Below are positions 17,860 through 54,871 of a DNA stretch of 54,871 bases, in pieces (position 1 is the stretch's first letter; every line of letters begins with the position of its first letter). Source of the DNA: Candidatus Omnitrophota bacterium (lineage in GTDB: Bacteria; Omnitrophota; Gorgyraeia; B26-G9); the NCBI GenBank assembly GCA_018817585.1, contig JAHITE010000120.1:1-54871 (forward strand). The letters run 5' to 3'. The notes below the pieces were generated by a model. That model saw nothing but the letters and a program-made list of their open reading frames with translations. It did not search any database and had not been told where the DNA came from. The translations under genes and the position numbers were made by a program.

Positions 17860-17983
17860 TCATTAAAACGATATCACCCTTGCTTGCCAACAAGCCGGTA
17901 TTTCTTGAAGCTCCGACACCTTCATTCTGGTCATGAGTTAAAATTCTAATTCGCGGGATATATTTTAACAGGATCTTAGAGCT
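17855..17983 (-). pseudogene. Internal remnant of a GT2 glycosyltransferase (copy 2)
   Basis: After a TAA at 17984-17986 the frame reads S-K-I-L-L-K-Y-I-P-R-I-R-I-L, then G-V-G-A-S-R-N-T-G and V-L-M-I-D-A-D. This parallels I-P-G-I-R-V-I-S-H, G-A-G-A-V-R-N-T-G and I-M-I-D-C-D of the GT2 enzyme at 10412-11122. It stops matching at the metal-binding D-x-D, where the rSAM remnant begins. Both ends of the transferase are lost. Confidence 0.75.
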
Positions 17984-37529: not shown

Positions 37530-38687
37530 TTATTCTTTCCATGACTCAGCGTAAATATTAAGTAAATTCTCAGCCGTAGTTTTCCAATTATATAATTCTT
37601 CGGCTCTTTGCCGGGCCTTTTTCGCTAATCTTTTACGTAAAGGCTCATCATCTAACAATCTTTTTATTCCTTGAGCCAAGTCTTCTGAGTCCCCGGGCAG
37701 AGTAAGGATTCCCGCTCCGCCGAGCATCCGCTTCACTTCCCCCACATCACTGGCAATAATCGGCTTACCGCTGGCCAAATACTCGGCAATTTTAAGCGGA
37801 CTTTTACATTGCGTAATCTCATTGTTTTCAAAACAAGCCACAGCAATATCTGTTGCCGCTAAATACAAAGGCGTTTCCTGATGACTAACCGCATTAGTAA
37901 AAACAATATTTTTCTCCATATCTAAATCCTGAGCCAAAGTTTTTAATTCAGCCAAGCGATAGCCTCCGCCGATAATAAAAAAAGTTAGGCCTTTGATCTG
38001 ATTAGTAATTATCTTTGCCGCCCGAATGAACTGTTCAGCGTATTGGCCGCCATGGAGTTGCCCGAGATAGCTGATAATCGGGCCATAAATATTATATTTT
38101 TCCCTTATCCTGATCGAAGAAATATCCGGATGAAATAAGTCCAGATCAGCCCCGACCGGAGCCATGGCGATTTTATTTGGGGCGATACCGTATTTAATAC
38201 ATTCCTGTTTTAAACGCTGGCTGGAAACCGAGATTGTATCACAAAGATTGGGAATATAGCGTTCCAAGGCCCAGAGAAAAGCACCGACCAGCCGCGGCTG
38301 TTTAGCGCAATAATAAAATATCTTTATTTCCCAGTCATCCCAGTCATAGTGCAGCGGCTTATTATTCAGAAAACCGCTGATCAAAGCCGGCAATGCGGCA
38401 TAAGCAAAACACTTTTGAAAATGAATAATATCTGACCATTTCCCCTGTTCACAAACATAGCGGATGTTTTTAAAATAATTAGCTATCCCCAATTTGCGGC
38501 TTAAGGGGATATACTCAATCCCCTGAATCGTAAAACTATCCCGCAGCTCCTGATATTCTAAAGGAAAATAAATTATCTTAATCGCATGACCTTTTTGCTT
38601 AAACTCCTGGGCAATTTTCTTAATTCTGATTGTCCAAGGCTCTTTTCGCGAAAATAAATCATGCGGATGAATCATCAGTATTTTCAT
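37530..38687 (-). CDS. Family 4 glycosyltransferase
   Basis: A 385-aa GT-B fold enzyme: M-I-H-P-H-D near the start, H-Y-D-W-D-D-W-E mid N-domain, I-S-Y-L-G-Q-L-H-G-G-Q-Y, I-I-G-G-G-Y and the donor site E-Y-L-A-S-G-K-P-I-I-A-S-D-V-G-E. The start has AAGGAA about 6 nt upstream. It shares the D-D-W-E segment with the GT4 enzyme at 24049-25140. It stands alone, with 218 bp after it and 431 bp before it. Likely cytoplasmic, using a nucleotide sugar. Confidence 0.88.
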   Translation of the reverse strand: MKILMIHPHDLFSRKEPWTIRIKKIAQEFKQKGHAIKIIYFPLEYQELRDSFTIQGIEYIPLSRKLGIANYFKNIRYVCEQGKWSDIIHFQKCFAYAALPALISGFLNNKPLHYDWDDWEIKIFYYCAKQPRLVGAFLWALERYIPNLCDTISVSSQRLKQECIKYGIAPNKIAMAPVGADLDLFHPDISSIRIREKYNIYGPIISYLGQLHGGQYAEQFIRAAKIITNQIKGLTFFIIGGGYRLAELKTLAQDLDMEKNIVFTNAVSHQETPLYLAATDIAVACFENNEITQCKSPLKIAEYLASGKPIIASDVGEVKRMLGGAGILTLPGDSEDLAQGIKRLLDDEPLRKRLAKKARQRAEELYNWKTTAENLLNIYAESWKE

Positions 38688-39118: not shown

Positions 39119-40753
39119 TCAATTGCCCGGGAAAATAATTGAGCCCCGGAGTTTTTTTAAAATAAACAAATAAAAATCAATAATAATACTAGCGATAAAC
39201 AAAATCAATAACAGTATAAATTTTCCTACTTTTCCTGAACGCTTAAAATTAGATAATTCACGCCCCGCTGAATTAATAATCTTAGTTTGCGGCTCATCTG
39301 CTGGTTTTAAACTCTTATCCCCTGCTGGATTTAGCTTACAGTTTTTATCCTGATAATTCACAATCAGGTTTTTAATCTTTAATTCCCGCAATAAATCACA
39401 GACCCGTTTTACCCGCTGATTGCGTTCAGACTGTGTTAACCCATTAGCATCAGTCCATTTGCCTGGATCAAGCGGATCAAGAAATTTAACCCCAAACCGC
39501 TGCGGATAAATCCCCACATCAGAACCCGGCATCAGCACAAAAGAAGAAACATTAGTCACCTGAGCGATGTATTGGCGATTACTTTGGATAAACTCGATTG
39601 TCTGAATAAAATCTGCTTCGGTTTCTCCGGGAAAACCAACAATAATATTCAGGCTAACTTGAATTTTAGCTTTAAATGTCCGGCGAATTACTTCCTGGGC
39701 ATCAGCCGCGGTATAATGCTTATTCATTTGGCCCAGAATAGCGTCTGATCCGCTTTCTATGCCATAGCATAAAGAATCGCATCCTGCCTGTTTCATGGCA
39801 TCCAGCAGTTCCTGAGTCATGTTCTTTCTGATTGCCGCATAGCTTATCCAAGTAAGATCCAGATTTTCCTGTTTTATCTGTTTGCACAGTTTATCCAATA
39901 AATAAAGATTACCATTACACAGCAGATCATTAAACTCGAGATGCGTAATATTATATTTTTGTTTAAGATATTTCATCTCCTCAATAATCTTCTCTGGCCT
40001 TTTCATCCGAAAACCAAAACAGATATACCAGTCAATACAATAACTGCATTGATTAATACAGCCTCGGCTGATTAACAAGGGCAAGGGATGATATTGGCTG
40101 TTATAATTGTATTTACTTAAATCAAACTCTTCAAATGTCGGATAAGCTAAACTGTTTAAATTTTTTACTGGCTGCCAAGGCAGATAATGAACATCCGCTG
40201 ATTCCTGGGCATAAAGCAGTCCCGAAACTTTTGAACATAAATACTCCGGAGATCGATTGATTTTAAATTCATTTATAAATTTCAGTAAAGCCTCTTCGCC
40301 TTCGCCAATAATAAAGAAATCTATATTTTTTTTGTCCACTGTCTTTCTATCCCAGCTGTGATAAATTCCCGGACCGCCTAATATTATAATTTTATCCGCA
40401 AATCGACGCTTAATTTTTTCAGCCACAAACCCAGCGAAAATCGCGCTGATCAGATTATTGGTGGAAAATCCAATAATTCCATAATCCGCCAGACTCTGAA
40501 CAAATTGATCGATATGAGCTTCAAAAGCTTGATAAATATTTTCCGCGATATTTGCTGGCTTAATCCGGTTTATCTCATCCAGCTGCCAGAATAATCCCTG
40601 TTTTACGTCTGCCTGCTCATAAAGATTAAGATTTAAATCAAAAACATCTGCCTGCGCGCCTTTTGACTTTAAGTATGCTGATAAATAAGCAATGCCCAAG
40701 GGCGGCATCACCACTCCCCAGGGAGGACAATTAACTAAAATTAATTTATTCAT
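39119..40753 (-). CDS. Cobalamin-binding radical SAM protein with C-terminal membrane segment
   Basis: A 544-aa enzyme. The cobalamin domain covers ~1-170 (P-P-W-G-V-V-M-P-P-L-G near 10-20, I-I-G-E-G-E-E-A near 148-155). The rSAM motif is R-G-C-I-N-Q-C-S-Y-C with C232, C236 and C239; Y-G-I-E-S-G-S-D follows. After a ~60-residue polar linker the protein ends with a hydrophobic stretch (F-I-L-L-L-I-L-F-I-A-S-I-I-I), so it is probably anchored to the cytoplasmic face of the membrane. The ATG overlaps the stop of the 1401-aa gene by 4 bp. A membrane-bound substrate such as a lipid-linked glycan would fit. Confidence 0.88.
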   Translation of the reverse strand: MNKLILVNCPPWGVVMPPLGIAYLSAYLKSKGAQADVFDLNLNLYEQADVKQGLFWQLDEINRIKPANIAENIYQAFEAHIDQFVQSLADYGIIGFSTNNLISAIFAGFVAEKIKRRFADKIIILGGPGIYHSWDRKTVDKKNIDFFIIGEGEEALLKFINEFKINRSPEYLCSKVSGLLYAQESADVHYLPWQPVKNLNSLAYPTFEEFDLSKYNYNSQYHPLPLLISRGCINQCSYCIDWYICFGFRMKRPEKIIEEMKYLKQKYNITHLEFNDLLCNGNLYLLDKLCKQIKQENLDLTWISYAAIRKNMTQELLDAMKQAGCDSLCYGIESGSDAILGQMNKHYTAADAQEVIRRTFKAKIQVSLNIIVGFPGETEADFIQTIEFIQSNRQYIAQVTNVSSFVLMPGSDVGIYPQRFGVKFLDPLDPGKWTDANGLTQSERNQRVKRVCDLLRELKIKNLIVNYQDKNCKLNPAGDKSLKPADEPQTKIINSAGRELSNFKRSGKVGKFILLLILFIASIIIDFYLFILKKLRGSIIFPGN

Positions 40754-43700
40754 TTACTGCCTTTTATCTTTATGTTTAAACAACAATCATTTACCTGATT
40801 AGGAAGAAAAACCCTGCCGCCTTGAGCTTCAATATTCTGCGCGGATATTATTCGCGCGTTAATTAACTTATCCGCGTTCTGGATTTGCGGGCTTATATTC
40901 TGATTCTCATTTGCCGAAAAATCAAAGACCAATTCCGGGAGATTTGTGTTTTTCGCTTTTACAGCTAAAACCTTTATTTGTTTTGTATTTATATCTTTGA
41001 TCTCTGCCTGCTGCCAATTCATTGCACTGGGAAATTTTCCGGTTTGGTTTTGAATCTGCCATTTTTTATAAATCGGAGACAGCATAATACTTGATTTAGT
41101 TTGTTCAATCTCTATTTTTGATTCTACTATCGTCTGGATACTCCATTGTAAAACAGAATCATCAATAAATTTTATTTGCCATGTCTGAGAAATCGGGATA
41201 TTATTCCAAGTGCTTTTAAGCTCAAGTTCCTGCTCATTATGCCGGATTACTTCCCACTTTGCCTTGGATGAGTCATACCATAAACCGAAAATAGATACGG
41301 ATGTATTTAATCCAATACTCTGCGTAATTTCCTGATTATCCCAATATAGTTTTATGCCCTCAGAATGATAAACCGCCTGGATCCTGCCTTTTTTAATAAT
41401 CTTTTTGCTGCTGATTTTTCTTTTATCAATTCGTGCTTTAACTACCTGCGAAAAAGTTTTGCCTTTAATATAATTCTTCGCCTTTATAAACAGTAGAAAT
41501 AGCTTTAATATTTTATATTCCACAACAGTTAAAGATTGTATTTTTTTGTGCGTATGAATATTCCGAGCAAGATCATCACAGCCTTTAAAACAGCCGACTT
41601 TAACATTCGGATCATTACCGATAAAGGAAAAGAATACATCCTCTTTAGGTAAAGACATTGCCCGCTTTCTAAACTCCTGTTGTTTGCGATTATTCCAAAT
41701 CTGGCTAAAATCATGAGCATAAATATTCCCTACCGGAATCCGGTGAGCTTTTAAACAAAAATTAACATTCCCATCAGCCAAGATCCGGGCAAACAGCCAG
41801 CCCATATAGCAAGGCATTTGATTCAGAATATTATTATCATATTGAGCGGCTTTAGCATCAGAATTATCCAGCCTGCGGATAAACTGCTCGAACTGCAAAA
41901 TTTTGATCTTATTCTTTAAATCCCCGGTTTCCAAACGCTGTTTGATTTTATTACAATCCGCTAATACAAACTGCCTCTGAGTATCGCTGAGCATTAAAGC
42001 ATCAGTGGCATTAGGGATCGTATCAATAACCGTAAATTCCAGGGAATCACATCCGGATTCCATAGCGAAATCAACCATTTCCGGCAATTCTTTATAATTC
42101 AGATTTGAAATAACATTATAAACATTGACTTGCGGCTTTTCCTGCTTAAGTGAATTAAGTAATTTAAGCATTCCTTTAAGCTGATAAAACATTTCCGCGG
42201 ATTTATTCGGATGAGTTTGCTGATAAGTTTTTGCTGTGCCTGCCCAAACACTGACAACCAGATTATCCACGCCAATATCAACCAGCTGCTTTACCCTATC
42301 TTCAGTTACCAAAGTAAAGTTTGTATTAATATAGCAGCGCAAACCCAAAGCCTTAACATGCGTCAGGATTTCCATAATCCGCGGATGCATAAACGGCTCT
42401 CCGCCTCCGGCAAAATATATTTCTTTTGTCCCCAGGCTTTTAAGCTGGTCTATGGTTTTTCTAACTACTTCTAAAGGCAGCGTTTGCTGCTTTACCTGAG
42501 CGCTGATCTGCTTATCTTTTAATAAAGGCGAATTGCACCAGCAGCCAATGCAGTCATTGTTACAGTCATTAGTAAGATCTATTTGCGCGCAAAACGGGCC
42601 TTTATAAGCAGCGGTTCCATCTAAAATTCCGATTATATCCAAATAATAATCTTTGAGTTTTTGAGGATTAAGATATTTGATGATTTTTTTTACAATTGAT
42701 ATTAAGCCCTGATTACTTACTTGTTCTTTAATAAACTTTAAAGGAACTTTGGTCTTATATGCTTGAATTGACTCTAGCTGTGACTGCTGACTAGACTTCA
42801 AATTAATCTGGAGATCAAAATAATCATAGATTCCCGGCAAAAATCTATTGATTTTCAAACGGCGCATCTGCAATATCCGGCCATTGATTTTTCGCTCCGT
42901 ATTCTGAATCTGCGGATAAATATTATCTTTAAACCCGGTTAAGGTTTTAAGCTCTATATCCGGAAAATCTTTGGTCGCTTTATTCTGAGCCATGGCCCAA
43001 AGCAAAGAGCTATTGGAATTATACAGTTCAATTTCTTCCCATTCAGTTATTTTCGGAAATATCCCTGTGCCTAGATCATCTTTCCACATTGTATATTGAT
43101 TACCGAGAAGTAATCCAGCTTTGTATTCCATAATTTCTATGTCTTGATCAATCTGAATACTGCTAAACCAGTTAATTTGATCATCATCTTCAATTGTAAT
43201 CAGCCATTGCTGACGTACTGGTTCCTGATCCCATTTCAATTTAACCCTGATCTGATTTTCTCCGGATTTTTCCAGTTTCCAATTAGCCAAAGAAGAATCA
43301 ATCCAGCGCTGACCGCAATGCATGGATGTATTTATTCCCACATCTTTGCTTATTTCCTTGTTTTTCCAAAACAGCCTTACCCGGCCTTCACTAAAAATAA
43401 TTTTAGTATTCCCTTTTGAGATTGTTTCTTCCACAATCCAAAGTTTTCGGCTAAAATACTGTCTGAGTCTTAACGGCAAAAATATCAACCTTCTCAGAAT
43501 AAAACTAATTACTTTTAAAAAAGTAGCAAACAATCCTTTATTCCTTAAAGATTCACTTAATTTCTGGTTTAAACTCTGCGCTTTAACTGGCAGCAGTTTT
43601 TTAAGTTTCAGCTGAGTATGCTTTTCCCATTGCTTATAAGCATTATGCTTTGCCTGCTTCAGCTGTTTTGCCGACAAAGCCTGGGTTCTAATCACACAGC

Positions 43701-44955
43701 TGTTATTGCCATCAAAATTTTCCCGGTTTTTATCCAGGATATAACCTTTTTTATCCATTTCTTCATAAAACCTAGTTCCGGGAAAAGGCGTGGCTAAAGA
43801 AAACTGCACCGAAGTCGGATTTAATTTCTTGGCATATTCAATTGTATCCTTGACTGTCCGCGCGTCTTCGCCAGGTAAGCCAAAAGTAAAAGTCAAATGA
43901 GTCCTGATCCCCAAATATTTAGTATAATTAACTACTTCCTCAACTTTTTTTAAGTCAGTACCTTTATTAATATTATCAAGTAATTTTTGCGATGAAGACT
44001 CTACTCCGTATTTCACGGAAAACAGGCCGGCTTTACGCATTCGCTCAAGCATTGGTTCATCCATCAGCTCTGCTCTGGCCATAATTGCCCAGGGTATTTG
44101 AAGATTTCTTTTTTCCAGTTCATCGCAAAAAGCAAAAATCCGCTCTTTGCCAATATTCCAGGTATCATCATCAAAATAAATTGATTTAAATCCCCACTGT
44201 TTAACCAGATATTCCATTTCATCAACAACATCCACAACATTCCTTACCCGGTAAGAACCGCCTTTGTACATTACCTGCGGCCATAAACAAAAACTGCATT
44301 TAAACGGACAACCGCGGCTGGCCCACATTGAAGCGCAAGGAATAGGAATATCTCCCGGAGAATCATTATAGCGTTTTATCAATAGTTTTTTGCGCTCTGG
44401 CCAGGGCAAAGAATCAAGATCCTTGATTAAAGGCCGGCCGGGATTTTTAATTGCTTTATCACCCTGCTTATAAATAAGTCCTTGAACATCACTTAAGCTG
44501 CTTTTATCTCTTAATTTCGCGCACAATTCTAGCAATGTTTGTTCATACTCACCAAACAGCAAATAATCAATAAATTTAGTTTTTTCCAAAAATTCCGGCT
44601 GTTCCAGCTGTGCTTCCGGACCGCAAATTACTATCGGCAGATGATCTTTATGTCTAATCAGCATTCTCAGATCATGGGCTAAAGTCACTGTTGATGTTTC
44701 CGCCACCAGCAAATCAGGCTTTAAACTAATTATCCGGTTAAAAAAAATATTTTCTGATAGTTTCTCGGCAATCGCGTCAATAATTTCTACTTCAAAACCG
44801 TTTTTTTCCAATAAAGCCGCGGCATAAGCCAAATAAAAGGGAAACGGCAAATAATTATCTTCTGTGTGATCTTTTATATGCGGCCAACGCGATCCGGCCC
44901 TAACTCCCCAGCGCTGGCCCTTTTTCCAGGGCAGATTAACTAAAACAATCCTCAT
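40750..44955 (-). CDS. 1401-aa double radical SAM protein with two beta domains
   Basis: Order of parts: cobalamin domain (~1-170); first rSAM core with C216, C220 and C223 (R-G-C-P-F-K-C-S-F-C); a basic, hydrophobic segment (~475-500); beta domain 1 (~515-718); a second, SPASM-type rSAM core with C798, C802 and C805 (D-C-N-N-D-C-I-G-C-W-C) and A-G-G-G-E-P; its auxiliary-cluster tail (C-Y-M-G-W-L-F...G-N-V-N-F-C, then G-C-F-K-G-C); and beta domain 2 (~1200-1398). Both beta domains show W-(I/Y)-D-S-S and P-(V/I)-x-Q-x-W. Two complete rSAM cores of different classes in one chain are rare. I infer consecutive chemistry on one substrate that the beta domains bind. Confidence 0.85.
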   Translation of the reverse strand: MRIVLVNLPWKKGQRWGVRAGSRWPHIKDHTEDNYLPFPFYLAYAAALLEKNGFEVEIIDAIAEKLSENIFFNRIISLKPDLLVAETSTVTLAHDLRMLIRHKDHLPIVICGPEAQLEQPEFLEKTKFIDYLLFGEYEQTLLELCAKLRDKSSLSDVQGLIYKQGDKAIKNPGRPLIKDLDSLPWPERKKLLIKRYNDSPGDIPIPCASMWASRGCPFKCSFCLWPQVMYKGGSYRVRNVVDVVDEMEYLVKQWGFKSIYFDDDTWNIGKERIFAFCDELEKRNLQIPWAIMARAELMDEPMLERMRKAGLFSVKYGVESSSQKLLDNINKGTDLKKVEEVVNYTKYLGIRTHLTFTFGLPGEDARTVKDTIEYAKKLNPTSVQFSLATPFPGTRFYEEMDKKGYILDKNRENFDGNNSCVIRTQALSAKQLKQAKHNAYKQWEKHTQLKLKKLLPVKAQSLNQKLSESLRNKGLFATFLKVISFILRRLIFLPLRLRQYFSRKLWIVEETISKGNTKIIFSEGRVRLFWKNKEISKDVGINTSMHCGQRWIDSSLANWKLEKSGENQIRVKLKWDQEPVRQQWLITIEDDDQINWFSSIQIDQDIEIMEYKAGLLLGNQYTMWKDDLGTGIFPKITEWEEIELYNSNSSLLWAMAQNKATKDFPDIELKTLTGFKDNIYPQIQNTERKINGRILQMRRLKINRFLPGIYDYFDLQINLKSSQQSQLESIQAYKTKVPLKFIKEQVSNQGLISIVKKIIKYLNPQKLKDYYLDIIGILDGTAAYKGPFCAQIDLTNDCNNDCIGCWCNSPLLKDKQISAQVKQQTLPLEVVRKTIDQLKSLGTKEIYFAGGGEPFMHPRIMEILTHVKALGLRCYINTNFTLVTEDRVKQLVDIGVDNLVVSVWAGTAKTYQQTHPNKSAEMFYQLKGMLKLLNSLKQEKPQVNVYNVISNLNYKELPEMVDFAMESGCDSLEFTVIDTIPNATDALMLSDTQRQFVLADCNKIKQRLETGDLKNKIKILQFEQFIRRLDNSDAKAAQYDNNILNQMPCYMGWLFARILADGNVNFCLKAHRIPVGNIYAHDFSQIWNNRKQQEFRKRAMSLPKEDVFFSFIGNDPNVKVGCFKGCDDLARNIHTHKKIQSLTVVEYKILKLFLLFIKAKNYIKGKTFSQVVKARIDKRKISSKKIIKKGRIQAVYHSEGIKLYWDNQEITQSIGLNTSVSIFGLWYDSSKAKWEVIRHNEQELELKSTWNNIPISQTWQIKFIDDSVLQWSIQTIVESKIEIEQTKSSIMLSPIYKKWQIQNQTGKFPSAMNWQQAEIKDINTKQIKVLAVKAKNTNLPELVFDFSANENQNISPQIQNADKLINARIISAQNIEAQGGRVFLPNQVNDCCLNIKIKGSK

Positions 44956-45052
44956 TTACTCAATTCCCTTCCTAAAAAATCAATTTAATTACTTTTTACC
45001 CGCGCGCCTAAAATATTAATTTTGCTTATAAAACATTACTAATCCAACTATT

Positions 45053-48000
45053 TTAATCCAGAAAAGCCTCAAGATTATAAAGCGCGAATTTATCCCAAAC
45101 ATCGCGAATTACCTGATGCGTATCACAATGCTGGCAATAATCATCAAATAAAGGATTTCCATTAAGAAATTTTTCTTGTTTATAATCATTCAGATATTTA
45201 GCTTGATAGCGGAACCGCGCGTACTCTTCAGAATTCCAGATCTCTTTAAATGTCTTATCTTTTAAATATCCGACTGTTCTTAAATGACAGCAAAAGCTGA
45301 CATCACCGGCAGCGGGGATAAGGCTGAAACTCCAACCCAAGGCACAGCCTTTTTCCAAAAACACATCTTTTGACCAGGAACCGGTTTTCTGTTCAAAATT
45401 ATTCAACTGAAATTCTGTAGTATCAAGAAGTTTAATTTCTTTACCCTTAACCATTTGCTTTATTTTCGGCAATGCCAGCTTAACCGCCGCGATATCTTCC
45501 GGCTTTAATTTTAAAAAGTCGATATTCTGATCAAGCCGGACAAGATAAAACCGAAGCACATCAGCGCCAACAGCAATATCATTTTCCGCCATCTCGATGA
45601 GCTCATGAGCATTCATCGCGTGAATAACATGAGTAACGATTAAACGCGGACTTTTAGCTTTAGTCTGTTTTTTATAATCAGTTAAATATTTAAGGTTTTC
45701 AAGTATGGTTAAAAAAGCTTTTTCATTTTGTTTGGTATTAATTTTAGCAAAAGTTTCCGCCTTTCCTGCCGGCAGACTACAGAAGATTTCACTTACCCCG
45801 AAATCAACTGCTTTTTTAGCCACTTCTTTATTCAACAATATCCCATTAGTAAAAAATGAGACATCGATCCCCTTATCCCGGCCATATTTTACCATGTCAA
45901 AAAATCGCTCATGCAATAAAGGTTCGCCATCGCCTTGAAAAATCATCAGATCAGTATAAAGATCACTCAGATCATCGGCGATACTTTTAAAAGCCTCAAA
46001 GGTCAGTTTGCGGTCAAGAAACTCCTGGGGATGTTTTATGCTTGGGGTATGCACCCAGCAATGAACACAGTTCGCGTTACAGCGATGGTATGGGTCAATA
46101 ACCACAATCTGCGGACCGATAAAAGCATGCTCGCAAATAACGCCCAGAAGCCGTAACAGCTGCCGCTCATTACCGGTACCTGCCTGAACAGAAACTGAAG
46201 TCAGTAATTCGAAAAAGCCATTATCGGTTAAAACAAACTCTACATTGCCAATTCCTTTAGCAACAGCCTTTAGCTCATCTAGATATTCAATGAAATTTCT
46301 TCGCAAGCGCCGCAACGGCAGTACAGCAAGTGTTAAAGAACGCAAATCCACGTTCTTACCTAATTCTTTGGCGACAAACTGTAATATCTCATTTAATTTA
46401 AAAAAATTATATCGGCAAACCCCTATTGCGATTTTTACATTTTGCCCTCTTTTGGATAATGACTGCAGCTTGTTTATCTTTTCATTGAATTGAAAAGCTT
46501 TATCAATGCGGTTATGCAAAAATTCATTATCTCCGTAAATATAGATTGCCTCGGTGCTTTTAGTCAAAGGCTGAGACATCAGCTTATAATCCTTAATCTC
46601 CTGTTCTTTTTCTATTATTCTAATCTTACCTTTAAAGCAAACCTGATATTTCGCCGGAAAAATTTTTGCTTCTTTTCCTTCAAGAATTTCCGCCTGCAGC
46701 ACTCTTCCTTTTATATGTTCATCTGTATTTTGTATTAATGATAGAGAGTTATCGTCAATTAAAAACATAATACCCGGCAAGTTGTTTTCCGGAAATGTCC
46801 CAAACGCATCCCCATCTCTATTTCGAATGATATCATGCCAAAAACCGAATTTTTCAGGGAACAGACCTTCTTCAAATGAATTAAACCAACGCCGATATTT
46901 ACCTGTAAGCATACACCCTGCCTTATGTTCATCTATTTGCACAGCTTCTTTTAATAGCGTATTTACCTGCCATGAAATGGTTTTATCATCTTCAAAATAA
47001 ATATCCCAAGTCTGTTGTGCCGGAAAAGGCTTAAAATCAATATCAATTCTTAATTTATCCGTAGATAGCTTTGAGCTCACCCACTTCATTTTTCCTGAAT
47101 CATACCAGCGTCCACTTGAAAATAAAGCAGTATGCATTCCAATATTAGTAGTTAATTCCTGATCTCTCCAAAAAATTCGTAATTTTCCTTTATCAGCAAG
47201 CAGTTTTAGTTTGTCATTTTCTATTCCGCGCTGCATAATTACACCATGCATTATTTTAGAAAGATGTTCTTCGATTATTTCTGGCTCAGGCACAATTTTT
47301 ATTTCCTGCGAGAAAGTAAACTCAGTTGTCCCTTTTTCATTATTGGCTCCCATTAACTCGGGCGTTAGACTCCCACCTGCTGCTATAGATTCATCATCAA
47401 ACGCATTTTCTTTTACAGCTTGCAGAAAACGTGCTTGGGCATTTTTATCCGAGTTTTGAACCACTAACGCTGCTTTGTTCTTCTCGTGATTCTTAAACAT
47501 AATCGCAGGATATTCATTATTATTTTTTAGACCGATAATTCCTTCCGGCAAATCTCTAATCATCTCCTGCCAACCGTCAAATGATTGGGGAAACTGCCCT
47601 GTTTCATAGCCTCCAAACCATTGTTTATATTCTGAACGGAGTATCATTCCTATCACCTGCTTATTAATCTTAAGTGTGCTGTTATTCACGATGGTCTTAA
47701 CTTTCCAAGTAAAAGAATTTTCATCGGAAATACGTAATTGCCAATATTGGTGTATCGGCAAAGGGCGCCAGTCAATATTTATATACAAACATGACGGGCT
47801 TATTCTTTCTACTTGCCATTTGCACTTACTAGCATCAAACCATTCATCATTGATTAACAATGCCGCATGAAGTCCTTGGTTCGCGGTAAGAACTAAATTA
47901 TTCCAAGACAAATGAATAGATGAATTTTTTAGCGTTAGTTTTAGCCGTCCTTCTTCAAGCTGCCTACTCTCAAGTAATTGCTTATTCTTCTGAGACAGGA

Positions 48001-48673
48001 ACTCTGCTGTTTTTGCCTCATTCTCAAACAAACATAAGTTAACATTAAAAGGCTTATAACGGTTAGAGATAATCGATTCATTATGCTTGTCCACCTCTAT
48101 ACGCAAGGCTCGACTCCGACAATCTTCCGGAGAATTCTGAAACAGAAGTTGTCCGTGCTGCAGATTCTCAAAAATAACTGCTGGTAAGTTTTGCGTATTT
48201 TTTACTCCTAATAACTTACCATTTAAATCCAGCAAAAATATTTTTTCCCAAGACTTATTAAAAGCAGGGACTCTCCCTTCTTCAACACCACTCACCCATT
48301 TTTCATATTCCTGACGAATCATAATCCCGCAAATTATTTTTTCAATTCTTAATGGCTCTTTTACATCCATATATACCATCAAGTTAAAACCATTATCTAT
48401 TTTGCTAATCTGCCAAAGCACTCGAAGCGGCAGCTGCTCCCAATCAATTGTAATATGCAAAACGTCTTTTTTATCTTCTACCTGCCAAATCCCACTGCTT
48501 GTATCATGCCAGCATCCATTAATTAAAAAAGCAGTATGCATCCCTAAATCACTGCTGATTTTTGTTTTTCCATAATAAAGATGCAGTTGTTTGTTGCAAA
48601 CAACCAGCCTTGCCATCGCATTAGTAAATTCAGATTTTTTCAGCTTTGATAAGATTTTTTTTAATATCCGCAT
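45053..48673 (-). CDS. 1206-aa protein: three beta domains plus a radical SAM/SPASM core
   Basis: Beta units lie at ~20-218, 240-462 and 485-690; each has W-(H/F/Y)-D-(T/A/S) and a P-x-x-x-x-W strand (W-F-D-A-S with P-I-H-Q-Y-W in unit 2). Residues ~700-855 are an unrecognised alpha/beta linker. The rSAM core follows with C865, C869 and C872 (H-R-C-N-A-N-C-V-H-C), Q-G-D-G-E-P in place of G-G-E-P, and F-F-T-N-G. The tail has G-C-A-L-G-W-S-F, G-D-V-S-F-C-C-H and Y-C-Q-H-C, as in SPASM domains. The start has GGAG 7 nt upstream. It lies 97 bp before the 1401-aa gene, whose second half has the same kinds of parts. Confidence 0.85.
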   Translation of the reverse strand: MRILKKILSKLKKSEFTNAMARLVVCNKQLHLYYGKTKISSDLGMHTAFLINGCWHDTSSGIWQVEDKKDVLHITIDWEQLPLRVLWQISKIDNGFNLMVYMDVKEPLRIEKIICGIMIRQEYEKWVSGVEEGRVPAFNKSWEKIFLLDLNGKLLGVKNTQNLPAVIFENLQHGQLLFQNSPEDCRSRALRIEVDKHNESIISNRYKPFNVNLCLFENEAKTAEFLSQKNKQLLESRQLEEGRLKLTLKNSSIHLSWNNLVLTANQGLHAALLINDEWFDASKCKWQVERISPSCLYINIDWRPLPIHQYWQLRISDENSFTWKVKTIVNNSTLKINKQVIGMILRSEYKQWFGGYETGQFPQSFDGWQEMIRDLPEGIIGLKNNNEYPAIMFKNHEKNKAALVVQNSDKNAQARFLQAVKENAFDDESIAAGGSLTPELMGANNEKGTTEFTFSQEIKIVPEPEIIEEHLSKIMHGVIMQRGIENDKLKLLADKGKLRIFWRDQELTTNIGMHTALFSSGRWYDSGKMKWVSSKLSTDKLRIDIDFKPFPAQQTWDIYFEDDKTISWQVNTLLKEAVQIDEHKAGCMLTGKYRRWFNSFEEGLFPEKFGFWHDIIRNRDGDAFGTFPENNLPGIMFLIDDNSLSLIQNTDEHIKGRVLQAEILEGKEAKIFPAKYQVCFKGKIRIIEKEQEIKDYKLMSQPLTKSTEAIYIYGDNEFLHNRIDKAFQFNEKINKLQSLSKRGQNVKIAIGVCRYNFFKLNEILQFVAKELGKNVDLRSLTLAVLPLRRLRRNFIEYLDELKAVAKGIGNVEFVLTDNGFFELLTSVSVQAGTGNERQLLRLLGVICEHAFIGPQIVVIDPYHRCNANCVHCWVHTPSIKHPQEFLDRKLTFEAFKSIADDLSDLYTDLMIFQGDGEPLLHERFFDMVKYGRDKGIDVSFFTNGILLNKEVAKKAVDFGVSEIFCSLPAGKAETFAKINTKQNEKAFLTILENLKYLTDYKKQTKAKSPRLIVTHVIHAMNAHELIEMAENDIAVGADVLRFYLVRLDQNIDFLKLKPEDIAAVKLALPKIKQMVKGKEIKLLDTTEFQLNNFEQKTGSWSKDVFLEKGCALGWSFSLIPAAGDVSFCCHLRTVGYLKDKTFKEIWNSEEYARFRYQAKYLNDYKQEKFLNGNPLFDDYCQHCDTHQVIRDVWDKFALYNLEAFLD

Positions 48674-48716
48674 AATAATTCTCCAAGTTTACCAGTCAAT
48701 AGCGTGTTAATTAACC

Positions 48717-48816
48717 GTAGGGGCACTGCTTGCCTGCGCCCGCGTATAAATTATTTAATTAATTTTAATAATCTATATTATTATACCCATTCGGCCACGT
48801 CACGCCGTGGCCCTAC
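48717..48816. repeat. 100-bp element with terminal inverted repeats
   Basis: GTAGGGGCAC (48717-48726) and GTGGCCCTAC (48807-48816) are inverted repeats matching at nine of ten bases and frame exactly 100 bp. The core is A+T-rich (TTATTTAATTAATTTTAATA), while the ends are far richer in G+C than the region. GGCCACG-N6-CGTGGCC forms a 7-bp hairpin inside the right end. It looks like a small dispersed repeat or MITE-like element lying between two rSAM genes. Its right end stops 2 bp before the stop codon of the gene at 48818. Confidence 0.5.
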
Positions 48817-48817
48817 C

Positions 48818-49840
48818 CTATTCCTGATCAAAATGACAGCTGACCACCAAATGACAGTTGCGTTTGCACTTATTTATCAGCTCTATATGCTTATCAGCCT
48901 GTTCCGATAAACAAATCTCGGCAAGAGTTTTATTACTCTTTAAATTATCGATTATCCCAACCATCTGACATTTTGAAATATTCCCGGATGGATCTATATT
49001 AAGTATTCCGGCTTTTGCTAAATTACATTTATTTTTTTTGATAAACCTTAAAGGATCTAAAAAATAAGCTTTAAAAACGTTAAATTGCGCTACATCATCG
49101 ATCATTTTATACCCTTTTTCTTTTAGCGCTATAAGTTGATCTATCGTTTCTTTGATTTTCTGTTTATCTTGAGGCCAAAGATTCTTATAGTCCTCTAATT
49201 TAAACCACTCTACATCAGGCGCTTTGTCGTAGGAAAAAGGCTGAGCTATTGCCTGAAAATTTATATAAGAAATCAGCTTATTATTTTCAACCCAGCAGGT
49301 AAGATCAATTATATCGTCAATATTAAGACCACTTATAATAGTATTAATACCTATGCAAGTATTGGGACTAAAAGTAGCAACATTTTCTATTGCTTTTAAA
49401 ACCCCCTCGCATGCCTTATCCGTCCCACGCATAAAATCATGTGTTTCAGCCTTGAGGCTGTCTAGTGAAAAAGAAATAAAACCCAGCCCTGACTCTGCGA
49501 TTTTAGTTGCGATTTGATTATTAACACAAGAGCCATTTGAAATCGTCTGAATTTTAAGCCCCAAGCTTCTTCCATATTTTATTAAATCAAATATACCACT
49601 GCGCAGCAGAGGTTCCCCTGATCCAGATAAATTAATAACACAATTGCCGATATCCACAAATTCACTAAGTTGTTTTAGAATATCCTTCCATTGCTCTATT
49701 GAGAGAATATTATTCGAATTTAAAGGGCTATCTAGCCAAAATTTACACATTTTACATTTAAAATTGCACTGATATGCAATACCCAGATCGCAATAAGTCA
49801 ATTCAATGTTATTTTTTTTACCGCTTAATTTTTCTATCAT
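48818..49840 (-). CDS. Small radical SAM/SPASM-like protein, type B (second pair)
   Basis: I choose the ATG at 49838-49840 because GAGG lies 6 nt upstream; the longer frame to 49879 would overlap the preceding gene. The protein is 340 aa. The rSAM motif is Q-C-N-F-K-C-K-M-C (C25, C29, C32), followed by S-G-S-G-E-P and S-N-G-S. Auxiliary cysteines are at K-C-N-L-A, then S-K-C, then C-K-R-N-C-H-L-V-V-S-C (C-x3-C-x5-C). It is most like the gene at 50869-51909 (A-Q-P-F-S versus T-Q-P-F-S, N-L-W-P versus S-L-W-P). It is the last of four tandem genes. Substrate unknown. Confidence 0.85.
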   Translation of the reverse strand: MIEKLSGKKNNIELTYCDLGIAYQCNFKCKMCKFWLDSPLNSNNILSIEQWKDILKQLSEFVDIGNCVINLSGSGEPLLRSGIFDLIKYGRSLGLKIQTISNGSCVNNQIATKIAESGLGFISFSLDSLKAETHDFMRGTDKACEGVLKAIENVATFSPNTCIGINTIISGLNIDDIIDLTCWVENNKLISYINFQAIAQPFSYDKAPDVEWFKLEDYKNLWPQDKQKIKETIDQLIALKEKGYKMIDDVAQFNVFKAYFLDPLRFIKKNKCNLAKAGILNIDPSGNISKCQMVGIIDNLKSNKTLAEICLSEQADKHIELINKCKRNCHLVVSCHFDQE

Positions 49841-49847
49841 AAATTCC

Positions 49848-50849
49848 TCACAAACTATTAACAGCAGGGTCTTCTTCAAAAAAGCAGTTTATTAAAAAAT
49901 GGCAGTTTTTTTTGCAATTTTTTATTTTAGCCCTAATTACTTCTGCCTCCACAGAACACCAAATTTTTCTAATATCATCTCCTTTCCTAATCTCTCCTAA
50001 CACACCATAATTAAAACACAAAAATATTTGTCCAATAGAACTAACATGTACTGCTTTGTACATATTGCAAACAGAATTTTTAACAAACTTTTCAGGATGG
50101 CGTAAGTATGCTTTAACAGCCCTCAGCTGCGCGATGGAATTGTTGATTTTATAATAGCTTTGCTTCATAAAAATTAACTTATCCATAAGCTTGTCTATAT
50201 CATCTGTATTTTTAGGCCACAAAAACCCGTATTCACCTTTCCACCAATGTTCTTCAGGTTCAGTATTATTCGGCTGCATAGCAACCATTATCAAAACGTG
50301 TTCGATTTTATTGTTATTATTTATCCATTCCATAAGAGGAATAAAATCACGATATGTCTGCTCATATATTACGCTGATCAGCGATACCCGCATATGCGGA
50401 GCAAATCTATGCAAATTATCTATCGCCTTAAGCGCCTTTTCATGCACTCCCTCAACTCCCCGCATATAATCATGTATTTTTGGATCAATACTGTCCAAAG
50501 ATAGCTTTATATCCCGCATCCCTGAATCACCCAGTTTCCGCGCTACATTTTCATCAATCAGAAAACCATTAGAGTTAATATTGGTATAGAAGCCAATATC
50601 AGAAGCGATTTTTATAATTTCGAATATATCCGGGTATAATAAAGCTTCTCCTCCGCCGAAATTAAGCACAAAATCATCATCAACCAGTTCCTTAAGTTCA
50701 GTAAGAAACTTCTTGTATTGGGCTATGCTGGGGCAAGAATTTAGATCCTTTTTTTCGATAAAAATATCCGGTTGCCACTTCTTGCACATTCTGCAGCGCA
50801 GCATACAATTATCCGTAATACCCAGACATCCAAATTCCGGTTCTACCAT
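49848..50849 (-). CDS. Small radical SAM/SPASM-like protein, type A (second pair)
   Basis: The chosen ATG (50847-50849) follows GGGAG by 9 nt and lies 20 bp after the previous stop; the open frame to 50957 would overlap that gene by 89 bp. The protein is 333 aa. The rSAM motif is N-C-M-L-R-C-R-M-C (C15, C19, C22), with F-G-G-G-E-A and N-S-N-G-F. The tail has V-C-N-M-Y, I-F-L-C-F and C-K-K-N-C-H-F-L-I-N-C. It is most like the gene at 51913-52932 (M-Q-P-N-N-T and E-H-W-W versus Q-W-W; H-V-S-S-I-G versus H-I-S-S-V-G). It probably pairs with the type B gene that follows 7 bp downstream. Confidence 0.85.
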   Translation of the reverse strand: MVEPEFGCLGITDNCMLRCRMCKKWQPDIFIEKKDLNSCPSIAQYKKFLTELKELVDDDFVLNFGGGEALLYPDIFEIIKIASDIGFYTNINSNGFLIDENVARKLGDSGMRDIKLSLDSIDPKIHDYMRGVEGVHEKALKAIDNLHRFAPHMRVSLISVIYEQTYRDFIPLMEWINNNNKIEHVLIMVAMQPNNTEPEEHWWKGEYGFLWPKNTDDIDKLMDKLIFMKQSYYKINNSIAQLRAVKAYLRHPEKFVKNSVCNMYKAVHVSSIGQIFLCFNYGVLGEIRKGDDIRKIWCSVEAEVIRAKIKNCKKNCHFLINCFFEEDPAVNSL

Positions 50850-50868
50850 TACTAAGTACTCCCATATT

Positions 50869-51909
50869 CTATTCTGAATAACTTTGCGAATCGTCAAAAT
50901 TACAATTAACCATTGCCTGGCAATTTTTTCGGCATAGCTGAATACGCCCGCGCACATCCCGGGCTAAGTCTGAATTCCACATATCTTTAATACTGGTACT
51001 TTTTATATTTCCTATAGAAGGCATATTAAAACACAAATGTACTTGACCCGCGGGAGTTATATTTATTGCCCAGCTATCTAAATGACACCTCCCTTTTTTA
51101 ATAAACTTATCAGGGTTATTAAAATATTTTTTGAAAGCCCTGAATTGGTTTGCCGGGTTTAGTATCTGAAAAGGCGCTTTAAAATCATTAGCTAACTTAA
51201 GACTATATAACTGCCCCATTGTTTCATTCACTTTGCCTATATCTTTTGGCCACAAAGACGCATACTTTTCGTTCCTGTACCAGAACTCTTCCACTGGGGT
51301 GCTAAAAGGCTGTGTTAGGGCCTGGAATCCCAAACCGTTAATTCGCCCATCATTATCAGCCCATTTTGTAAGATCAATGATTTCATGCATATTAAGCTCA
51401 CAAATAACGCAATTAAGATAAATATTAGTCTGAGGTGAAAACCTTTTAATGAAATCAATGGCTTTTAGGACTTTCTCATGCGCGCCAGTTACTCCTCTCA
51501 TAAAATCATGCGTTTGAGGCCTGAAACCATCAAGAGATATTGAGATATTGCCAAGATTTGACCGGCCAATTTCCACAGCCTTATTCTTATCTATTAAAAA
51601 AGCATTAGTAGCCAAAAGAGTATCAAATCCCAATCCTTGAGCATGTTCAATAAGTACTAGGGTTTCCTCTCTGACCAATGGCTCCCCGCCAGCAAAATTA
51701 ATCTGCGGCTTATTATCTTTGCAAAGTAGTGCAAGATCTGATACCGCCTGTTTCCACTGCTCTAATGCCGGTTCATCCGGCTTGCGGATATTGACATCTT
51801 CGAGCCATTTATAGCACATTTTACAATGCATAAAACAACTCTCAATTAAAGCCAAACAGCAGTAAGACGGCTGTGCTGCTTCAGTAATATATTCCTGCCA
51901 ATAATCCAT
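50869..51909 (-). CDS. Small radical SAM/SPASM-like protein, type B (first pair)
   Basis: A 346-aa enzyme. The rSAM motif is S-C-F-M-H-C-K-M-C (C25, C29, C32), with F-A-G-G-E-P and A-T-N-A-F. H-D-F-M-R-G-V-T-G-A-H-E-K-V-L-K-A-I resembles a stretch present in all four small rSAMs. The tail has R-C-H-L-D, V-H-L-C-F-N and C-R-K-N-C-Q-A-M-V-N-C. The start has AAGGA 7-8 nt upstream. It follows the type A gene with a 3-bp gap. An auxiliary iron-sulfur cluster is likely, so a peptide, protein or sugar could be the substrate. Confidence 0.87.
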   Translation of the reverse strand: MDYWQEYITEAAQPSYCCLALIESCFMHCKMCYKWLEDVNIRKPDEPALEQWKQAVSDLALLCKDNKPQINFAGGEPLVREETLVLIEHAQGLGFDTLLATNAFLIDKNKAVEIGRSNLGNISISLDGFRPQTHDFMRGVTGAHEKVLKAIDFIKRFSPQTNIYLNCVICELNMHEIIDLTKWADNDGRINGLGFQALTQPFSTPVEEFWYRNEKYASLWPKDIGKVNETMGQLYSLKLANDFKAPFQILNPANQFRAFKKYFNNPDKFIKKGRCHLDSWAINITPAGQVHLCFNMPSIGNIKSTSIKDMWNSDLARDVRGRIQLCRKNCQAMVNCNFDDSQSYSE

Positions 51910-51912
51910 AAA

Positions 51913-52932
51913 CTAATCCTTGAAATTGCAATTTAATAGAAAATGACAATTTTCCCGACAATTATTAATTTGTTTACGCACTAATTCCGCATGTTCACTT
52001 TGCCATAATTCATCCAGCGAGATTTTGCGCACATCGCCTAGGCATTGATGCTGATAGCACATAAACATATCGCCCACAGAGCTGATATGTATCGCGTGAT
52101 CAATATTGCAGCTGCTTTGTTTGACATAAGTATTTGGATCAAATGAATAAGTTTTAAATGCCTGCAGATGCTCAATCGGATTACATATCTTATAGCCTTT
52201 TATTTTCAGCTGAATAAGCTCGTCTAAAACCGCGGCAGCCTGGTTATAATCCTTGAGCCATAATTCATTGAATGCCTGCTCCTTCCACCACTGTTCCTGC
52301 TGGTCAGTATTATTGGGCTGCATCAGCACCATCAGGTAAATCATATTTATTTTATTATTTTGCTGCACCCATTTAACCAGATCAACCATTCCCGTAAGTG
52401 TCGGCTGCATTATGATCGAACAAATACTGATCTGAGTATTTGGCGCGTATTGATTAACTAAATCAATTGCCTGCATTACCTTATCATATACTCCTTCTAC
52501 CCCACGCAAATAATCATGGGTTTTTCTATCCAAACTATCCAAAGATATATTTATATAATCAAGTTTGCTATCCCGCATTTTCTCTACCATTGCTCGATCA
52601 ATAATAAACGCATTAGTAGCAATATTCGTTCTAAACCCCAGCTCATGACAAAATTTAATCAGATCAAACAGCCAGGGAACAGTAGTAATCTCTCCTCCGC
52701 CAAAGTTAATAACAAAATCATCAGGCGCAAATTTCCGCAAAGATAATGCGCATTTTTTCCAGTCTTCTAATTCCATCTGTAAGCGGTCAGGTTTAATAAA
52801 AATATCTTTTTTCCATTTAAAGCACATCTTACACTCTAAGAAACAATAATCAGATAGAGTAAAGCAGCAAAATGTAGGCACAGGGATTTCTTTAAAATCC
52901 AAATTATAGTTTAACGACTGATTTTCTTGCAT
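51913..52932 (-). CDS. Small radical SAM/SPASM-like protein, type A (first pair)
   Basis: The chosen ATG (52930-52932) has GGAG about 7 nt upstream; the frame is open to 52974, but those 14 codons lack a ribosome site. The protein is 339 aa. The rSAM motif is Y-C-F-L-E-C-K-M-C (C30, C34, C37), with F-G-G-G-E-I in place of G-G-E-P. M-Q-P-N-N-T and Q-W-W mark the type A core. The tail has S-C-N-I-D, M-F-M-C-Y and C-R-E-N-C-H-F-L-L-N-C. It is first of the four tandem rSAM genes and comes 76 bp after the beta-domain gene. Confidence 0.87.
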   Translation of the reverse strand: MQENQSLNYNLDFKEIPVPTFCCFTLSDYCFLECKMCFKWKKDIFIKPDRLQMELEDWKKCALSLRKFAPDDFVINFGGGEITTVPWLFDLIKFCHELGFRTNIATNAFIIDRAMVEKMRDSKLDYINISLDSLDRKTHDYLRGVEGVYDKVMQAIDLVNQYAPNTQISICSIIMQPTLTGMVDLVKWVQQNNKINMIYLMVLMQPNNTDQQEQWWKEQAFNELWLKDYNQAAAVLDELIQLKIKGYKICNPIEHLQAFKTYSFDPNTYVKQSSCNIDHAIHISSVGDMFMCYQHQCLGDVRKISLDELWQSEHAELVRKQINNCRENCHFLLNCNFKD

Positions 52933-53008
52933 TTTTTTCTCCATTTTAAAAATGAAAATAGCCCAAAGCGGCATTAAGAGTAATCAAGATTTCCCCTCAT
53001 AGCATGGT

Positions 53009-54871
53009 CTAGTTCCCAATTCTAATTTTACCTTTAAAGGAAAGCTGTTTTTGCTTTCCCCTTTCATTTTCACTAATATTACAAACACATTTAAGGACAC
53101 GACTTTTATAAGCAGTATCTGTATTTTCAATAACATTACTAAATTTATTATTTTTAAAAAAACCTTCAAAATACAAATCTGGCAATTTGTGTTTTTCTTC
53201 AAAAACACTGATAGGTTTTCCCGACTCTGCTAAGGTTTTCCATAGCCCGTAATTTTCAGGAAATCTACCTTCTTCATTTGAAGCGGTTTTCCAGCAATCA
53301 TACCCTGGCTCAACCATAAGTACCGCAGCCATATCAGTTATTGTTGTATTTTTAAGATCTGCATTTACCAGCCATTCAATTTCATGTTCATTAACGATTG
53401 AGATTTGCCATGATTGTTTAACAGCCAGTCTGTTCCAAGACAAATCAGCCTGAATTTTTAAATCATGCTTATTTAATTTCCATTTTGCCTGTGTTGAATC
53501 TGTCCATTTATCAAATACTCTAAATGCTGTATAAAGACAAAGAGCATTTGTTATTTTCTTTCCCTTAACCCATAAATCTATTTTAGCCTTTTCTAACCGA
53601 ATTACAGTTTGTCCGGAAACCAATTCCGCTTTATTTATTTTATTATTTTTAACATTATGGACTTTATTTATTGTTTTTTGCTCAGTCAGCATTATTTCTG
53701 CGGAAAAAAATTCAGTCTCTCCTGCTTTCAATATTAAGCCTTTATCTGAGATGAGCGAAGTACAACCGAATGATACGGCATTTCTGTTATTCATTATATA
53801 TATGTGAAGCATCCAATCATTCATATTAATATCCGGAGCTAAAGCAAGCCCTGGGTTTTCTGGAGAAAGGGAACCTTTATGTATAATAATAAATCTGCTG
53901 CGATTATCTATTAAATTTACATCCTGATACTGGCTATCTTGCGGATTTAAATCAAAACTACCTTGCGCTTGCTCACTAATCCAGTTACGGTAATCTAAGG
54001 GCATTAAAACACACAAATCAACCTCATTAAGAACCACTTCTTCTTTAGCATCAAGGATAATCTTCCAGTTAATTTGGTTATTATGCGCAGAGAAAATCCA
54101 TCTTTGTTTAAAAGGCGCATCTTCCCATTCTAAAGTAACCATTATTTTATCAGGACTCAATTTTTCAGCATACCATTCGGCCAGACTGGAATCAAACAAT
54201 TTCTCCTTGTTAGAAATCGCAACAAGAAAACCTGTTTCCGCATTGATTCGTTTGTCTTTATAGATTAGATTTATTGCTTTATTTGTAAATTTAAGCAGAA
54301 AATCATTTCCTGCTGATAATTCAAAATTTTCCCTGCAATATTCAACTATCTGTTCTTCCCATTGTTTTTTTTGTATAAAGCACAACTTGCCTTTGAAAAT
54401 ATCTTTTTTTATTAATGATCCCCCTATTTCTTTTGGAGAAACCGCGCATTGAAACCGCAGAAGCCGCTCATTTTCGAATCCTTCAATCAGAGCCAAAGAT
54501 TTATTATTTAAATCAATTCTTTTAAAAATCAATCCGGGAAAATTATTATTTTCAGCACATACTCCAAGTAAGGGACTCAGCTTATTGCTTAAACCAACAG
54601 AAATCCGACTCTTTTCCCCCGCAGAAGTAAAATAGCCTTTCTCGTACAAATTTCTCCACTGCGAGAATTGTTTTTTTAAAAAAATCCCCGCTTGATAATA
54701 AAATTCCGCTATCGGCCCTTGGGTTGTTATCTCTATTGTCCATTCAATCTCATTATTATTAAGCGCTATCTCCCAGCGCTGCTCAATAGGTAAACTACTA
54801 TGCTTTATCAATATATCCAGCTTATTTCCATTTTTTACAATCTGCTTATCGTTAATTTCAGACTCATACCA
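53009..54871 (-). CDS. Beta-domain repeat protein (5' end outside the window)
   Basis: The frame is open to the last base of the window; the upstream 20 codons (W-Y-E-S-E-I-N-D...) align with the W-Y-D-S motif, so the gene continues to the right and the TTG at 54811 is not its start. About 620 residues are visible, with one nearly complete unit and two full units of the beta domain (L-P-I-E-Q-R-W; F-D-S-S with A-P-F-K-Q-R-W; W-T-D-S with L-A-V-K-Q-S-W). It ends in K-G-K-I-R-I-G-N, close to F-K-G-K-I-R-I-I-E at the end of unit 3 in the 1206-aa protein. No rSAM core is fused at this end. It lies just upstream of the four small rSAM genes, probably co-transcribed. Confidence 0.82.
   Translation of the reverse strand, partial: WYESEINDKQIVKNGNKLDILIKHSSLPIEQRWEIALNNNEIEWTIEITTQGPIAEFYYQAGIFLKKQFSQWRNLYEKGYFTSAGEKSRISVGLSNKLSPLLGVCAENNNFPGLIFKRIDLNNKSLALIEGFENERLLRFQCAVSPKEIGGSLIKKDIFKGKLCFIQKKQWEEQIVEYCRENFELSAGNDFLLKFTNKAINLIYKDKRINAETGFLVAISNKEKLFDSSLAEWYAEKLSPDKIMVTLEWEDAPFKQRWIFSAHNNQINWKIILDAKEEVVLNEVDLCVLMPLDYRNWISEQAQGSFDLNPQDSQYQDVNLIDNRSRFIIIHKGSLSPENPGLALAPDINMNDWMLHIYIMNNRNAVSFGCTSLISDKGLILKAGETEFFSAEIMLTEQKTINKVHNVKNNKINKAELVSGQTVIRLEKAKIDLWVKGKKITNALCLYTAFRVFDKWTDSTQAKWKLNKHDLKIQADLSWNRLAVKQSWQISIVNEHEIEWLVNADLKNTTITDMAAVLMVEPGYDCWKTASNEEGRFPENYGLWKTLAESGKPISVFEEKHKLPDLYFEGFFKNNKFSNVIENTDTAYKSRVLKCVCNISENERGKQKQLSFKGKIRIGN

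Follow-up and report, generated by a model that had tools for sequence, protein, structure and literature searches.

Why does one beta-sheet domain recur on a series of radical S-adenosylmethionine (rSAM) enzymes, and what might it be for? The question is raised by contig C59 (JAHITE010000120.1, 54,871 nucleotides, assembly GCA_018817585.1) of a Candidatus Omnitrophota bacterium, which was analysed over its whole length, referred to here as the window, and which belongs to a genome of 2.64 Mb in 125 contigs. Between 39119 and 54871, on the reverse strand, it encodes a B12-type rSAM protein, proteins of 1401 and 1206 residues, four small rSAM proteins and a protein left open-ended at the contig edge; the 1401-residue, 1206-residue and edge proteins carry the domain, which we name U. 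The answer proposed here starts from the edge gene, which encodes the ATPase of a Wzm/Wzt-type glycan exporter with U units in place of the carbohydrate-binding domain Wzt_C.

A preliminary description, made from the letters of the window without database searches, had counted eight units of an unrecognised domain in three genes: three in the edge protein (one of them partial), three in the 1206-residue protein and two in the 1401-residue protein. The profile places all eight, and the continuation of the edge gene on another contig brings the number to ten. Pairwise BLAST among the U-bearing proteins reaches E-values down to 1e-39, and a profile built from the five rSAM-fused units of the window recovers the five units of the joined edge protein with i-Evalues of 4e-16 to 6e-34, against a best value of 0.011 in the shuffle control (n=200). 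The units are therefore homologous beyond chance and align, as had been claimed, as a single family, with a refined length of 203 positions. The motifs that had been ascribed to every unit are common across 50 units (W523 80%, D525 66%, Q554 70%, W556 80%) but loose, one unit of the edge protein reading LFDSS without the tryptophan; the most constant columns are G512 (94%), P633 (96%) and R657 (90%). When the 50 units were scanned against Pfam and NCBIfam no consistent family was matched, and a profile search of the PDB gave no sequence match, so that the domain was rightly described as unrecognised and U as a known domain was ruled out.

The domain had been described as occurring also without an rSAM core, but in the edge protein it proved not to stand alone when the rest of the gene was located. 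The window holds its 3′ part (53009..54871, reverse strand); the 5′ part lies at the end of contig C31 (L019:9695-11959) and encodes an ATPase domain, two complete U units and the start of a third. The last 55 bases of C31 and the first 55 of the window’s reverse complement share 54 bases and are in frame with each other, the single mismatch leaving one residue ambiguous (K or E); the two contigs, C59 and C31, can be scaffolded by way of the split gene. The joined protein of about 1357 residues consists of an N-terminal ATP-binding cassette (ABC) ATPase followed by five U units, of which the third, partial in the window, lies at 54374..54871 (residues 1-166 of the edge reading frame, by profile match), the fourth at 53684..54319 (residues 185-396; profile E 1.8e-46) and the fifth at 53015..53626 (residues 416-619; 1.8e-50), all on the reverse strand. 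A complete orthologue (L020:2316-6437) has 1374 residues and five U units, and downstream of it the order of the window is kept: four rSAM genes, homologues of the 1206-residue protein, of the 1401-residue protein and of the B12-type protein of 544 residues, and then the same glycosyltransferases. A stand-alone binding protein at the right edge was accordingly rejected, the reading frame there being the 3′ portion of a gene for an ABC ATPase.

That the ATPase belongs to a glycan exporter is clear from its own sequence and from its partner. In a phmmer search the ATPase domain of the L020 orthologue matches Wzt of A. aeolicus (6amx) with an E-value of 3.2e-60 and TagH with 5.8e-49. Because the match to the 404-residue Wzt chains ends with the ATPase domain, the tail of this exporter is not the Wzt carbohydrate-binding domain, and PF14524 (Wzt_C) was not found in the window’s genome. 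The ABC-2 permease beside the ATPase gene on C31 matches Wzm (E 5.5e-18); it is preceded by a gene that matches UDP-galactopyranose mutase over almost its full length (7.5e-43), and that gene in turn by one for a WecA/MraY-like transferase. Read from this context, and from the glycosyltransferases nearby, the cargo is presumably a lipid-linked polysaccharide.

The arrangement recurs well beyond this genome. The U profile was searched in 197 genomes of the class and 384 of the phylum, all Omnitrophota and mostly metagenome assemblies, with E-values stated per genome; loci were chosen by their U match, with rSAM genes disregarded, a further set of weaker U matches being added later, and the neighbourhood counts refer to the first 35 U-tailed ATPase genes. 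U is present in 43 of the class genomes, including all those sampled from the window’s family, and in 73 of the phylum genomes, another class included; the sole test outside the phylum, a scan of 84,980 genomes for a peptide pattern that has little sensitivity for distant units, found U only in Candidatus Omnitrophota. A permease is adjacent to 32 of the 35 ATPase genes. There are rSAM genes within 10 kb of 33 of them, with a mean of 4, where about 0.6 would be expected per such stretch from the 64 matches over cut-off in the 2.64-Mb genome; the two genes without any in that range are the C31 fragment, which itself continues into the window, and a gene that ends at a contig end. Tabulating co-occurrence by profile, as had been proposed, shows the same association at the level of genomes. 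The core B12-type rSAM found at the N-terminus of the 1401-residue protein is a tight family (33 matches of at least 553 bits, the next at 237) and occurs in 36 of the 197 class genomes, 35 of which have U as against 8 of the 161 others (Fisher p 6e-30, in a test that assumes independent genomes, an assumption that related ones violate).

Exporter and enzyme may even be one polypeptide, as in a chain of 1902 residues with the order ABC-U-U-B12rSAM-U-rSAM (L038) and another of 1189 residues with the order ABC-U-U-half-rSAM (L075); further architectures include U-B12rSAM, B12rSAM-U and U-U-U-half-rSAM. The ABC ATPases carry from 1 to 11 U units, the largest array being that of a 2743-residue ATPase from another class of the phylum (L082:7429-15657), which rSAM genes adjoin. 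Glycosyltransferases are drawn into the same association. In four genomes, glycosyltransferases of the GT-C type (PMT_2) end in a U unit (L090:7155-9470, L097:6176-8440, L062:3667-5934 and L085:2751-5045), those of L090 and L097 lying away from the ABC gene. Fusions of a GT2 glycosyltransferase to an rSAM enzyme are found in 11 U-exporter loci (L043:10861-12762, and L046, L050, L052, L061, L063, L067, L070, L074, L091 and L095); several of the genomes with such loci have the core B12-type rSAM unfused and farther off.

Among the 197 class genomes only one, G019, has the core rSAM without U. Its locus encodes a Wzm permease and a Wzt ATPase with a canonical Wzt_C (PF14524; E 5e-22, 79 bits against a cut-off of 30), together with a related GT4 glycosyltransferase and a fusion of the core rSAM with a SPASM rSAM, which likewise has no U. 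G019 is thus a single case of a natural domain swap, the position that U holds in loci of this kind being taken by Wzt_C. Because Wzt_C is known as a domain that binds the glycan’s chemical cap and gates export (PMC9445017, PMC11231755), the swap bears directly on the function of U.

The predicted structure of U resembles those of sugar enzymes. An AlphaFold 2 model of the third unit of the 1206-residue protein, made from 50 units, is all beta, with a mean predicted local confidence (pLDDT) of 95.8 and a pTM of 0.91. Foldseek matches, with E-values down to 4e-5, include glycosidase domains, galactose mutarotases (among them GalM, with a TM-score on the query of 0.62), OpgG and the P1 domain of YidC, all of the mutarotase-like supersandwich type; representative matches score 0.55-0.7 on the query, and viral capsid and other proteins are likewise among them. 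No Wzt carbohydrate-binding domain is among the matches listed. A galactose-mutarotase-like supersandwich is therefore the fold that the model supports for U, in agreement with the guess of a sugar-mutarotase-like sandwich made in the preliminary description. Mutarotase catalysis needs two histidines and a glutamate (H96, H170 and E304 in L. lactis GalM); in the 50 units of U the catalytic histidines are not conserved, the best histidine column reaching 34%, and no acidic column exceeds 66%. Because these histidines are not conserved, a role in binding is more likely than one in catalysis, and U as an active mutarotase was rejected. U shares the predicted fold of the superfamily (GalM, YidC P1, OpgG and the N-terminal domains of glycoside hydrolases) and departs from it in being shorter, at about 205 residues, in standing in tandem and in having no Pfam sequence match.

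We consider it probable that U is a glycan-recognition domain that replaces Wzt_C, holding the rSAM enzymes on the glycan while the tail of the exporter reads the modified chain. The units would bind the lipid-linked surface glycan of Omnitrophota; as fusion partners or gene neighbours of cobalamin-type and SPASM rSAM enzymes, they would keep these enzymes at the membrane on that glycan, whether still growing or complete, and on glycosyltransferases they would likewise keep these on the chain. The rSAM enzymes may alter sugars of the glycan, in the polymer or its cap; methylation, deoxygenation, epimerisation and ring rearrangement are examples of what they might do. Once modified, the chain would be bound by the U tail of the exporter and let through, a checkpoint of the kind that the classical cap-reading domain of Wzt provides. 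A stronger form, in which rSAM chemistry takes place directly on the lipid-linked polysaccharide at the inner membrane and enzymes, glycosyltransferases and exporter share the chain by means of tandem U, can be put forward tentatively. The suggestion that the locus is a polymer-modifying system is plausible on this account, though incomplete as first made, since U is also the tail of a Wzm/Wzt-type exporter, which was invisible from the window.

Catalytic modules that alternate with binding modules in an enzyme acting on a polymer are familiar from the AlgE alginate epimerases, which differ in being extracellular, calcium-dependent and not rSAM enzymes, and whose domains are unrelated. The closer comparison is with Wzm/Wzt exporters that have Wzt_C (A. 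aeolicus, E. coli O9a, Klebsiella O4/O12). The ATPase and permease are homologous, a beta domain follows directly at the C-terminal end of the ATPase and a glycan gene cluster surrounds the genes; in contrast, the tail here is a series of 1 to 11 units of predicted mutarotase fold, where Wzt_C is a jelly-roll, and its domain is common to, and sometimes fused with, rSAM enzymes. For the caps known to be read by Wzt, the enzymes responsible are methyltransferases, kinases or glycosyltransferases (PMC9445017, PMC11231755). In open papers in PMC, rSAM enzymes tied to a Wzm/Wzt exporter were not found described.

The alternative that survives best is that U is a docking domain, the units on ATPase, rSAM enzymes and glycosyltransferases binding one another or a common partner, not the glycan, and so building an enzyme complex at the membrane. 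It would account for a domain that almost all parts of one machine carry in differing numbers of copies, and for enzymes and exporter that share one chain. We nevertheless regard it as unlikely: in G019 U is exchanged for a true carbohydrate-binding domain, its predicted fold resembles that of sugar enzymes, and on the GT-C glycosyltransferases it is again C-terminal, which by analogy with ArnT would place it on the other side of the membrane.

The rSAM proteins of the window have a PF04055 match and an intact CX3CX2C motif. The block from 39119 to 52974 consists of rSAM genes without exception, as the preliminary description had it for the neighbours of the domain, and the window, 2% of the genome, carries 15 of its 64 rSAM matches over cut-off; a remnant of a further rSAM gene, with a PF04055 match limited to positions 98-165 and two in-frame stops, lies at 17371-17889. 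On the reverse strand, next to the ATPase gene, are four small paralogues of 31-42% identity, at 51913..52974 (CFLECKMC; PF04055 3e-17, SPASM 6.7e-6), 50869..51909 (CFMHCKMC; 8.7e-16, SPASM 1.1e-8), 49848..50957 (CMLRCRMC; 2.3e-21, with BlsE as the nearest solved structure at 4.7e-8) and 48818..49879 (CNFKCKMC; 1.4e-16). The last two reading frames overlap the genes upstream, and their true starts are probably internal methionine codons just downstream.

By domain and profile matches, the 1206-residue protein (45053..48673, reverse strand) has the order U-U-U, a segment resembling half an rSAM barrel, and an rSAM/SPASM core. Its U units occupy 48026..48631 (residues 15-216; profile E 3.9e-67), 47291..47962 (residues 238-461; 3.7e-65) and 46613..47227 (residues 483-687, the unit modelled and used for Foldseek), and its core 45056..46105 (CNANCVHC, a motif found in all orthologues; PF04055 6.3e-15, SPASM 8e-10). 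The 169-residue segment between them (residues 688-856; 46106..46612) is strongly conserved, across 10 orthologues, with weak rSAM similarity; it carries the motifs LHDRIAG, SRYNFF and NERQLLRLLG, and the segment is also present in L075, L062 and L089. It is alpha/beta in the model and is possibly a degenerate half rSAM barrel, on weak evidence (hhalign probability 4%). The top Foldseek match was DesII, whose N-terminal domain consists of six helices (PMC11434129); an identity with that domain was rejected, the segment being modelled as alpha/beta and the profile match covering the rSAM part only.

The 1401-residue protein (40750..44955, reverse strand) is shown by the same kinds of match to have the order B12-type rSAM, U, rSAM/SPASM, U. 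The core B12-type rSAM, the one co-distributed with U, lies at 43546..44955, with HpnJ and AprD4 as its nearest families; unit A follows at 42796..43425 (residues 511-720; profile E 6.6e-64), the second core at 41656..42582 (TIGR04317 1.5e-38, SPASM 4.7e-9) and unit B at 40762..41400 (residues 1186-1398; 1.2e-61). Ahead of each U is a hydrophobic stretch (residues 475-493 and 1139-1157), possibly membrane-associated. A B12-binding-like rSAM protein without U ends the block (39119..40753, reverse strand; PF04055 4.8e-22, B12-binding 2e-7), and its gene is syntenic in L020, L022, L024 and L025. Beyond it, on the same strand, are a GT4 glycosyltransferase gene conserved in many core-rSAM loci (37530..38687; PF00534 3.7e-23) and, by domain matches, genes of the same glycan cluster for a GT2 glycosyltransferase and a carbamoyltransferase (34663..37311), syntenic in L020. 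The remaining window is rich in glycan genes (GT2, GT4, several GT-C, carbamoyltransferase, DegT aminotransferase, methyltransferase); a 718-residue protein with a GH5 cellulase-like domain is encoded inside this biosynthesis cluster, at 19550-21706.

The characterised enzymes closest to the rSAM cores, HpnJ, AprD4, BlsE and DesII, act mostly on sugars, and all are remote relatives. HpnJ, bacteriohopanetetrol cyclitol ether synthase, represents the nearest NCBIfam family of the core B12-type rSAM (TIGR03471, 263.7 bits) and acts on the sugar head group of a membrane glycolipid (PMC12583986); the core rSAM differs in scoring far under the cut-off of 577.6 bits, in being fused to U and a second rSAM, and in lying in an exporter locus. 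Since the NCBIfam equivalogs listed for the cores, HpnJ among them, all score below cut-off, assignment to HpnJ or another equivalog was rejected. AprD4, BlsE and DesII, the nearest solved relatives by sequence or fold, belong to pathways for small-molecule antibiotics, with neither a glycan-binding tail nor a link to an exporter.

These relationships leave room for two further readings of what the enzymes act on. In one, they mature a peptide or glycopeptide that the exporter carries, in keeping with the peptide substrates common among SPASM-type rSAM enzymes and with models for ribosomally synthesised and post-translationally modified peptides among the weak NCBIfam matches; yet none of the models listed is above cut-off (rSAM_ocin_1 reaches 149 bits against 282), the exporter is of Wzt/TagH type, 11 loci encode GT2-rSAM fusions and the surroundings are a glycan cluster, which make this reading very improbable. 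In the other, which we rate lower still, U binds a lipid carrier or nucleotide-sugar precursor and the enzymes act on precursors ahead of polymerisation. DesII and BlsE, among the nearest rSAM structures, do have nucleotide-sugar or nucleoside-sugar substrates, and a hydrophobic stretch stands before each U of the 1401-residue protein, but tandem arrays of up to 11 units are easier to reconcile with a ligand that repeats than with one small precursor, and the same position in classical Wzt reads the glycan terminus (PMC9445017). Least probable of all is that U is itself an enzyme on glycan sugars, be it a mutarotase, epimerase or lyase: fold and association with sugar metabolism would allow it, but the residues kept most constant are G, P, W and R and not the histidines or acidic residues of catalysis.

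Glycan recognition by U, the reading that we prefer, has to be weighed against several observations that do not favour it. Mutarotase-like folds also occur in proteins that do not handle sugars, and YidC P1 is among the Foldseek matches. A simple cap-reader needs no variation from 1 to 11 units. Eight genomes have U with no detected core rSAM, several of them being incomplete assemblies. The rSAM cores are only distantly similar in sequence to enzymes that act on sugars and reach none of the NCBIfam equivalog cut-offs, and the substrates of SPASM rSAM enzymes are usually peptides.

A new domain family is defined here, with a fold and a testable class of ligand, and a role can be proposed for many rSAM genes of these bacteria. 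The domain swap of G019 provides natural material for a direct experiment. The exporter’s proposed reading domain is in these bacteria common to rSAM enzymes, and both can be one protein; if the proposal is correct, modification of the glycan would be physically coupled to its export, in some lineages within one polypeptide.

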